NCBI RefSeq assembly: GCF_005116455.1 | Contig: NZ_SWBP01000006.1 | Coordinates: forward strand, 124,001 to 188,000 | Length of the DNA: 64,000 bases | Source: Pedobacter cryophilus | GTDB taxonomy: Bacteria > Bacteroidota > Bacteroidia > Sphingobacteriales > Sphingobacteriaceae | Reading direction: 5' to 3' | In this document: positions 50,990-53,114 of the stretch, one piece after another | How positions within the stretch are numbered: position 1 is the stretch's first letter | How the letters are laid out: every line of letters begins with the position of its first letter | Position numbers and translations under genes: made by a program | Notes under the pieces: model-generated | The model's input: the letters and a program-made list of their open reading frames with translations, nothing else | What the model was told of the DNA's origin: nothing | The model's database searches: none

Positions 50990-52081
50990 TTAATTATTGT
51001 AAACCTTTACTACAAAAATAAAATCTTGCATCTTTTTTATACGTTGTGTTCTGCTTAATCCTGCCAATGTATTTTTCTTATTGATAGTGATTTTCTCTTT
51101 TAAAGAATCTTGAGGAATATTGTCTATCGCTTTTAACAAAAAGTTAGATTTTATAGCAAATGTTGCTCCATCTGCCTGAGTTTGCTTGCCACTCACAATA
51201 CCAATAATGTTTCCTTTGCTATCTAATAAAGGCCCACCAGAATTACCTGGATTAACCGGAATAGAAACTTGATAAGCAATAGAATCGCCACCAAAACCAT
51301 TAGCCGAACTTAAGTAACCTTCTCCGTAAACTACATCATCTTTTGGGAAACCAAAAGTGTAAACGTCTTCTCCTAAATCAGAAGCTTTTCTTTTAAAGGT
51401 ATAAGGTAAGGCCGAAAGATTTTTGAATGTTGGATCTATAATTTGTAATACAGCAATATCAGAAGCCGGATCTATGTAAATGGTTTCCACTTTAAAAGAC
51501 TCGCCTTTATTATTTTGAACATAAATAGAATCGGCACCTTCTACCACATGGTAATTGGTCACCAAATATCCGTTAGATGTTAATGCAAATCCTGTTCCGC
51601 CAAACTGACTTGGTGTAGCATCTTGATTTTTACTGTTAATATTTCTGATTAAAGCATTTTGAGAACGCTTTATATTTTCCATATCTCTTTTTAAAGCGCT
51701 GTAACTTGGGTTGGTTTCCTTTTTAAACTGACCTGTTGATAAAAGCGTAACCAAAGTAACCAAAATAGCTACAGAAGCTGCCACCGCTAAATTTTTCTTA
51801 TGCTTTCTCCAAATAGAAACAATTTTAGTTGGCTTCTCTAGGTATTGTTCTTTTAAAGCTTCCACATCTAATTCTGCATGAATTTCATTCATTGCATTTC
51901 TAAGATTTCTTTCTTCTCCAAAACTTTTTAAAGTTTTTAGAAAATCTAAATGTGCAATTACCTTATGATCTAAAGCTGAATTTGCTTTTCTTTCTAAATC
52001 AAAAGCAGCCAATTCCTCAGCGCTCATCTCATTAAAAAGATAAGATTCAATTTTTTTAATCAAATCAATTTCACTTTTCAT
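50990..52081 (-). CDS. Membrane-anchored trypsin/DegP-like protease with anti-sigma-like N-terminus
   Basis: A 363-residue protein in three parts. Residues 1-90 are cytosolic, acidic and helical (IESYLFNEMSAEELAAFDLERKAN...), like the N-terminal segment of Bacteroidota anti-sigma factors. Residues ~98-114 form one membrane helix (LAVAASVAILVTLVTLL). Residues ~155-340 form an S1C/trypsin-like protease with His178 (TNYHVVEG), Asp208 (DPASDIAVLQI) and Ser281 (NPGNSGGPLLD). No PDZ domain follows. It lies 5 bp after a sigma factor gene. I infer that it holds the sigma factor and senses envelope damage with its periplasmic protease part. Confidence 0.88.
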   Translation of the reverse strand: MKSEIDLIKKIESYLFNEMSAEELAAFDLERKANSALDHKVIAHLDFLKTLKSFGEERNLRNAMNEIHAELDVEALKEQYLEKPTKIVSIWRKHKKNLAVAASVAILVTLVTLLSTGQFKKETNPSYSALKRDMENIKRSQNALIRNINSKNQDATPSQFGGTGFALTSNGYLVTNYHVVEGADSIYVQNNKGESFKVETIYIDPASDIAVLQIIDPTFKNLSALPYTFKRKASDLGEDVYTFGFPKDDVVYGEGYLSSANGFGGDSIAYQVSIPVNPGNSGGPLLDSKGNIIGIVSGKQTQADGATFAIKSNFLLKAIDNIPQDSLKEKITINKKNTLAGLSRTQRIKKMQDFIFVVKVYNN

Positions 52082-52086
52082 ATTTC

Positions 52087-52659
52087 TTATTTTTGACTAA
52101 AAAACAATTTCTTTAGCCTTTGAAGACACTTATATTTTTGAGTCTTGGCATTATCTGCATTGGTATAACCAAATTTCTCGCAAATGTCTTGCATAGAACT
52201 ATTATGAATGTAAAAATCTTCAATAATAGTTTTGCAAGGTTCACCTAACTCTTGTAAAGCACTATTCATTAATAAAAACTGCTGATCTTTTTCTTCACGC
52301 TGCTCTACATCTTGCTCTACCTGAAAATGATCTTCGTAATCTTTAATATCTCCACCACTAAATCTACTTTTATGATTTAGCTTCTTTAACCACAACCTTC
52401 TACATACCGAGTATAAAAATGTTTTAAGCTTACTACTTAATTCAAAATCTCCACTTTTTATTTTATCATGAAGAACTAAAACTCCTTCCTGAAAAACATC
52501 TTTAGCATCATCTTCATTTCCGTTGTTATTAATGATCAATTGTAAGACCATTGGAAAATAAGTTTTATAAAGATATTTAAGTGTAGCAGATGAATTATTC
52601 AGGATGCCTAAAATGATTTCCTTATCTGTTGGCTTAGAATCGTTTATCTTGTTACTCAC
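52087..52659 (-). CDS. ECF-type sigma factor paired with membrane protease
   Basis: A 190-residue sigma-70 family protein. Region 2 is YLYKTYFPMVLQLIINNNGNEDDAKDVFQEGVLVLHDKI...LKTFLYSVCRRLWLKKL; region 4 is LGEPCKTIIEDFYIHNSSMQDICEKFGYTNADNAKTQKYKCLQRLKKLF. The only plausible start is the GTG at 52657-52659, since an in-frame stop lies two codons upstream. The two-box element GGGTTAC-N15-GTATTAA ends 3 bp before this GTG, implying autoregulation and a nearly leaderless mRNA. It is co-transcribed with the protease gene. Confidence 0.9.
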   Translation of the reverse strand: MSNKINDSKPTDKEIILGILNNSSATLKYLYKTYFPMVLQLIINNNGNEDDAKDVFQEGVLVLHDKIKSGDFELSSKLKTFLYSVCRRLWLKKLNHKSRFSGGDIKDYEDHFQVEQDVEQREEKDQQFLLMNSALQELGEPCKTIIEDFYIHNSSMQDICEKFGYTNADNAKTQKYKCLQRLKKLFFSQK

Positions 52660-52662
52660 TTC

Positions 52663-52691
52663 TTAATACTATTTCCGCTAAATTGTAACCC
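52663..52691 (-). promoter_or_regulatory. Two-box element before the sigma factor gene
   Basis: The minus strand reads GGGTTAC (52691-52685), 15 bp, GTATTAA (52669-52663). Both boxes and the spacing are identical to the element at 52808-52836 on the other strand. Candidate promoter recognised by the adjacent sigma factor, or a shared operator. Confidence 0.65.
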
Positions 52692-52807
52692 TTTCTCCGT
52701 AAAAAAAAATTTAAACTGCATTATTATCTAAATAATTTCAAATTATTATCCAAAATTCAATCCAAAAAATAAAATTTCACCTTTTTTAAAAAAAATTCAA
52801 GTATTGA

Positions 52808-52836
52808 GGGTTACCTTTTTAAATTTTAGGTATTAA
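52808..52836 (+). promoter_or_regulatory. Two-box element before the small lipoprotein gene
   Basis: GGGTTAC (52808-52814), 15 bp, GTATTAA (52830-52836), 35 bp upstream of the ATG at 52872. It is identical in both boxes and in spacing to the divergent element before the sigma gene. Confidence 0.65.
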
Positions 52837-52871: not shown

Positions 52872-53060
52872 ATGAAAAATTTATTAAAATTCGGATTTTT
52901 TGCTTTAGCTATCTCATTATCAGTAGTTGCTTGTAACTCTAACAAACCAGCTGAAGAAACTGCTGATTCAGCTGCTATGGATTCTATAACAGTTGATACT
53001 TCTGCAATTGATTCAGTTGCTCCAGATTCAGTTGCTGTTGATACTACTGCTGCAATGTAA
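52872..53060 (+). CDS. Small Asp/Ser/Thr-rich lipoprotein
   Basis: A 62-residue lipoprotein: signal peptide MKNLLKFGFFALAISLSVVAC with the acylated cysteine at 21, then ~40 residues almost entirely Asp, Ser, Thr, Ala and Val in a DS/DT rhythm (AAMDSITVDTSAIDSVAPDS...). The mature part is acidic and probably unfolded, attached to a membrane. It diverges from the sigma-protease operon, shares the two-box element with it, and has a strong terminator, so it is a likely target of that sigma factor. Confidence 0.85.
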   Translation: MKNLLKFGFFALAISLSVVACNSNKPAEETADSAAMDSITVDTSAIDSVAPDSVAVDTTAAM

Positions 53061-53085: not shown

Positions 53086-53114
53086 CCACTATCTTTTGAT
53101 AGTGGTTTTTTTTT
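53086..53114 (+). terminator. Terminator of the small lipoprotein gene
   Basis: A perfect 8-bp stem (CCACTATC / GATAGTGG) with a TTTT loop is followed by nine T residues. Confidence 0.95.

Follow-up and report, generated by a model that had tools for sequence, protein, structure and literature searches.

In Escherichia coli, sigma E together with RseA, DegS and RseP makes up the envelope-stress pathway. Knowledge of promoters and stress circuits in Bacteroidota is sparse, and this phylum makes little use of Shine-Dalgarno sites. Sigma/anti-sigma pairs of Bacteroidales possess an anti-sigma factor that spans both membranes, and they are autoregulated, with the sigma gene going up 33-fold (PMC9308784, PMC13088901). 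For Flavobacterium psychrophilum SM6, extracytoplasmic function (ECF)-type promoters have been mapped, one of them at a sigma/anti-sigma operon, and the available part of that report describes no GGGTTAC/GTATTAA element (PMC9723704). In addition, PG1827 (an ECF sigma factor) and PG1828 (the lipoprotein that names NF050142) of Porphyromonas gingivalis have consecutive locus numbers, which suggests, from the numbering alone, a neighbourhood similar to the one described below. Here, we have analyzed a window of 64,000 nt from Pedobacter cryophilus (assembly GCF_005116455.1, contig NZ_SWBP01000006.1, positions 124,001-188,000), in which the motif GGGTTAC-N15-GTATTAA, two 7-mers with a fixed 15-bp spacing, precedes both an ECF sigma factor gene and a divergent small lipoprotein gene. 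Comparative sequence analysis indicates that the two elements are very probably promoters read by the adjacent sigma factor, forming an autoregulated circuit with a very narrow regulon.

As in the sigma E system, the sigma factor would transcribe its own operon, a membrane protein occupies the anti-sigma position, a DegS-like periplasmic protease is recognized by fold match, and the putative output is an envelope lipoprotein. Unlike in E. coli, the candidate anti-sigma factor and the protease lie in one chain, as if RseA and DegS had been fused; there is no PDZ domain, the boxes are GGGTTAC and GTATTAA, and the regulon apparently comprises one operon and one type of lipoprotein. The locus also resembles the Bacteroidales pairs in its two-gene operon of a sigma factor and a membrane-bound candidate anti-sigma factor and, to judge from the inferred function of the window's genes, in envelope-stress input and autoregulation, whereas their partner protein spans to an outer-membrane beta-barrel and that of the window ends in a periplasmic protease domain. 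It differs from the P. gingivalis genes in that the window's lipoprotein falls just under the cut-off of the PG1828 family and PG1827 has been linked to oxidative-stress genes. A literature search returned GGGTTAC as a word only in two unrelated papers and no description of the motif or the locus, its reach excluding much of the subscription literature, among it the main ECF classification. The kind of circuit, an autoregulated ECF system, is well known; this motif and this locus are the part for which no description was found.

Both copies of the motif in the window are exact (0 mismatches). The putative sigma-operon promoter occupies positions 52663-52691 of the minus strand, with a -35-like GGGTTAC at 52685-52691, a 15-bp spacer and a -10-like GTATTAA at 52663-52669. 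The putative lipoprotein promoter lies on the plus strand at 52808-52836, with GGGTTAC at 52808-52814, a 15-bp spacer beginning CTTTT and GTATTAA at 52830-52836. The two sites share one 212-bp intergenic region and face outward in opposite directions, the first ending 3 nt from the GTG start codon of the sigma gene (52659) and the second 35 nt from the lipoprotein ATG (52872). The initial annotation had described identical two-box elements with differing spacers and considered such a match unlikely by chance, and each of these statements is borne out: the spacers do differ, and base composition predicts only 0.0007 exact hits on the two strands of the window together and 0.045 in the 4.0-Mb genome, compared with two N15 copies found in the whole genome, both at this locus. 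The next-best matches within the window have 3 mismatches, and the single N17 copy in the genome (L001) falls within an unrelated coding frame.

Conservation in orthologous loci had been set beforehand as a test on which the prediction could fail. Scanning 84,980 genomes, each representing a different species, yielded 80 close loci, with sigma factors that are mostly 68-82% identical, and the same search with the boxes reversed provided the background control. An exact GGGTTAC-N15/16-GTATTAA stands directly before the sigma gene in all 79 close loci that hold upstream DNA, so the prediction passed. Divergent from the sigma gene, small lipoprotein genes are found in 75 of the 80 loci, between one and six per locus and 168 in total, and 153 of these are preceded by the motif at no more than 2 mismatches (99 exact, 50 with 1 mismatch and 4 with 2), while the best match of the reversed boxes at the lipoprotein genes always has at least 3. 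The motif ends 2-3 nt before the sigma start codons and approximately 36 nt before the lipoprotein ATGs, and the box sequences, the 15-16 bp spacing and these distances fit a -35/-10 layout. Spacers and flanks diverge while both boxes stay fixed, in sigma promoters and lipoprotein arrays as well as in other families. On the lipoprotein side the motif is extended to GGGTTACCTTTT, and on the sigma side it reads GGGTTACnATT. Upstream of the sigma -35 box there is also a T tract (52701-52709, minus strand), whose counterpart in the window's lipoprotein promoter is a T6A8 run at 52782-52795. The tract is a third feature common to both kinds of promoter, possibly a UP-like element: 11-15 bp upstream of GGGTTAC, the frequency of T is 0.92 among the 79 sigma promoters and 0.85 among 103 promoters of lipoprotein genes.

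The distribution of the motif across the phylum was analyzed in an even set of 393 genomes, in which a match of at least 200 bits was taken as a sigma ortholog. The exact motif occurs in 32 genomes and a close sigma ortholog in 31; the motif is present in 28 of the 31 genomes with the ortholog versus 4 of the 362 without it (Fisher p ~3e-35). Genomes with the motif and the ortholog belong to four families (f1, f2, f9 and f10) of one class, so that, as judged from these sequences, no fewer than four bacterial families share the arrangement. Among 30 ortholog loci that were fetched, 27 have an exact copy just upstream of the sigma gene and three a copy with one mismatch; in 27 of the 30, a divergent copy with no more than 2 mismatches lies at most 800 bp away, the controls having at least 3. 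The aligned sigma factors of other lineages are 44-53% identical to that of the window, with the sigma-4 helix nearly the same letter for letter. In distant relatives (28-37% identity), the sigma-4 helix and the boxes are both altered and the position is retained, the place of the window promoter being taken by GGTTACC-N17-GTAT in family f8 and by (G/A)TTCACC-N15-(A/T)CATTAAC in f20 and f31. If the boxes are read directly by this sigma factor, they would be expected to change together with its recognition helix, as is seen; the co-change is a correlation with sigma recognition rather than proof of it. The individual loci at which (G/A)TTCACC-N15-(A/T)CATTAAC precedes a distant sigma gene are L194, L196-L199 and L201.

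Two conserved boxes approximately 15-17 bp apart before both the sigma gene and its target genes are what characterizes an ECF-autoregulated promoter, and this layout is present here. The autoregulated circuit with a lipoprotein output that had been proposed at the outset is supported by ortholog conservation, by the tracking of the sigma gene and by the co-change of boxes and helix. The elements and their conservation, the way they track the sigma gene and the anatomy of the genes are observed directly; from these we infer a mechanism that involves binding by this sigma factor, an anti-sigma function, a stress input, proteolytic release and a role for the lipoprotein. At rest, the cytosolic domain of the partner would keep the sigma factor at the inner membrane, while the DegS-like protease of the same partner would face the periplasm. 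Upon envelope stress, the partner would be cleaved or changed and the sigma factor freed to transcribe its own operon (sigma and anti-sigma/protease) from 52663-52691, which would give both amplification and re-capture of the sigma factor, and to transcribe the lipoprotein gene from 52808-52836.

Other explanations of the boxes have to be weighed against promoters for this sigma factor. They could serve as the operator of a further DNA-binding protein that regulates both genes, considering that TAC-N15-GTA forms a weak inverted repeat within the motif, and such a second protein may act there. However, the arms of this repeat are just 3 bp long, the conserved boxes are unlike 7-mers with a 15-16 bp spacer in the usual ECF layout, and no conserved regulator gene is seen nearby besides the sigma factor and its partner; since the motif also follows the sigma gene in its occurrence and the boxes change with the sigma-4 helix, we consider an operator improbable. 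It appears very improbable that the boxes form a variant promoter read by the housekeeping sigma factor or by another ECF factor of the same cells. Such genomes encode several ECF factors, among which cross-talk is common (overlap is discussed in PMC9723704), and basal expression of Bacteroidota genes also depends on a housekeeping promoter; but GTATTAA is unlike the flavobacterial housekeeping -7 box, TAnnTTTG, as given in the same report, and the motif is enriched only in genomes with this sigma ortholog. Finally, some similarity among the 80 close loci is inherited, given their 68-82% sigma identity, yet with 0.045 copies expected per genome and boxes that are kept even where the sequence between and around them has changed, coincidence or shared ancestry of neutral sequence is refuted by the conservation pattern and has a negligible probability.

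Several points weigh against the proposed circuit. One genome, G017, holds the 31st ortholog and lacks the motif. The 80 close loci are mutually related and hence not independent, and the control consisted of reversed boxes rather than an explicit evolutionary model. For the cytosolic domain of the partner protein, searches of Pfam, NCBIfam and PDB yielded no match to a curated or named anti-sigma domain. The box is also so close to the sigma start codon that a conventional transcription start site would fall inside the gene.

The last point bears on how the sigma gene is expressed. This gene (52087-52659, minus strand) encodes a protein of 190 aa that matches TIGR02937 with 75.1 bits over residues 27-184 (cut-off 42.9), and a Pfam search detects region 2 only (Sigma70_r2). 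The protein appears to consist of sigma-2 and sigma-4 regions alone and matches the ECF superfamily model, as is characteristic of ECF (group IV) factors. In 75 of the 79 close loci, the start codon is GTG or TTG and lies 2-3 nt past GTATTAA; in the window, the -10 box itself contributes an in-frame TAA, and there is no other usual start codon ahead of region 2. In other families the sigma start is mostly 7-24 nt from the box and is sometimes ATG. Transcript 5′ ends had been expected 5-10 bp past GTATTAA, which for the sigma gene conflicts with a start codon 3 nt away. Because a start 5-10 bp past the box would remove the only plausible start codon of the sigma gene, transcription is predicted to begin within approximately 3 nt of the box, and the sigma mRNA, in close relatives too, would be leaderless; otherwise, transcripts from this promoter do not include the start codon of the sigma gene. 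Leaderless messages amount to 5.5% in F. psychrophilum (PMC9723704). In 26 loci (among L013-L081), a second exact copy, usually N16, faces the sigma gene approximately 100 bp upstream, and from such a tandem copy a sigma mRNA with a leader could be made in addition to the leaderless form.

The partner gene (50990-52081, minus strand) begins 5 bp after the sigma gene and encodes a putative anti-sigma/protease fusion of 363 aa. Its layout comprises cytosolic helices (residues ~1-80) and a transmembrane helix (within 86-115), followed by a coiled coil and by a DegS/HtrA-like protease domain (~160-320); the predicted structure (mean pLDDT 75, low in the linker) places the cytosolic helices at 4-15, 21-33, 35-70 and 73-79. 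The protease domain matches Trypsin_2 with 86.1 bits, its predicted fold matches HhoA, DegS and HtrA1, and H178, D208 and S281 are invariant in 21 partner sequences, so that the predicted protein has the trypsin-like fold and His-Asp-Ser triad of HtrA/DegS serine proteases. As its scores against the DegS and DegP equivalogs are 68 and 93 bits (cut-offs 423 and 416) and no PDZ domain is matched in Pfam, the partner is, on these profiles, a protease-domain relative and not DegS. A protein with the GNSGG protease signature is encoded downstream of the sigma gene in 78 of the 80 loci. The cytosolic part aligns (probability 92%) with the cytosolic part of single-pass, protease-free proteins that are encoded at the corresponding position behind the f8 sigma genes. 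Class I anti-sigma domains (ASDI) have an N-terminal three-helix bundle and a fourth helix (PMC7406223); here, there are four predicted cytosolic helices and adjacency in those 78 loci, with a profile match only to other candidate anti-sigma factors. It is likely that the partner is an anti-sigma domain joined by one transmembrane helix to its own site-1-like, DegS-like protease. Because the window's cytosolic part contains no cysteine, such an anti-sigma factor would be of the non-zinc kind.

The lipoprotein gene is an open reading frame at 52872-53060 (plus strand) for a protein of 62 aa with a signal peptide, a Cys and an Asp/Ser/Thr/Ala-rich tail. It belongs to a conserved family whose members are encoded at this position in 75 of the 80 loci. 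The window's lipoprotein scores 48.2 and 46.9 bits against NF050142, below the cut-off of 50, and does not belong to the PG1828-family lipoproteins by this measure; the match is largely to the signal peptide and low complexity. NF050142 was rejected as a tracer of lipoprotein descent, being too permissive on low-complexity tails. A terminator-like hairpin read from the sequence, CCACTATC-TTTT-GATAGTGG followed by a T run (53086-53114, plus strand), suggests a single-gene lipoprotein transcript. At loci among L013-L076, there are arrays of up to six tandem lipoprotein paralogs beside the sigma gene, with near-identical signal peptides and fast-changing low-complexity Asp/Ser/Thr/Lys/Met tails. 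Nearly every lipoprotein gene of an array is preceded by its own promoter motif.

A broad envelope regulon, which had been envisaged, is not borne out in the organism's own genome, where hits with up to 2 mismatches (43) show no excess over the reversed control (48). One of the two 1-mismatch hits (L085) is inside a coding frame, and the other (L084) lies between genes but has none after it on the strand to which it belongs. The best reading of these sequences is that the regulon is very narrow, probably consisting of the sigma operon and one lipoprotein type that has been amplified to arrays in many relatives. In six f2 genomes (L114, L119, L171, L172, L173 and L182), an exact motif is located before small AMPK/CBM48-like glycogen-binding proteins, which, as far as motif position indicates, are a second recurrent target in this family, outside that of the window. 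In two further genomes (G365 and G150, loci L120 and L178), the exact motif lies approximately 200 bp upstream of a conserved protein starting MKxQ...IAKRFFLGNL, and the gap points to either a long leader or a small intervening gene that has escaped annotation.

Taken further, the locus might represent a compressed pathway, a tentative idea that we do not favour at present: a self-sensing chain of anti-sigma factor and site-1 protease, a leaderless GUG/UUG sigma mRNA that couples translation to the promoter, and an output made up almost entirely of one disordered, arrayed lipoprotein, perhaps reporting to or quenching the protease. In at least four Bacteroidota families, the ECF sigma factor is accompanied by a nearly invariant 14-base promoter signature, and the regulon is small enough for complete testing in one strain. 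The anti-sigma/protease fusion, if true, would make the RseA-DegS logic testable in a single protein, and the prediction of a leaderless, non-AUG sigma mRNA can be checked and bears on translation in Bacteroidota. The promoter could also double as an orthogonal expression tool.
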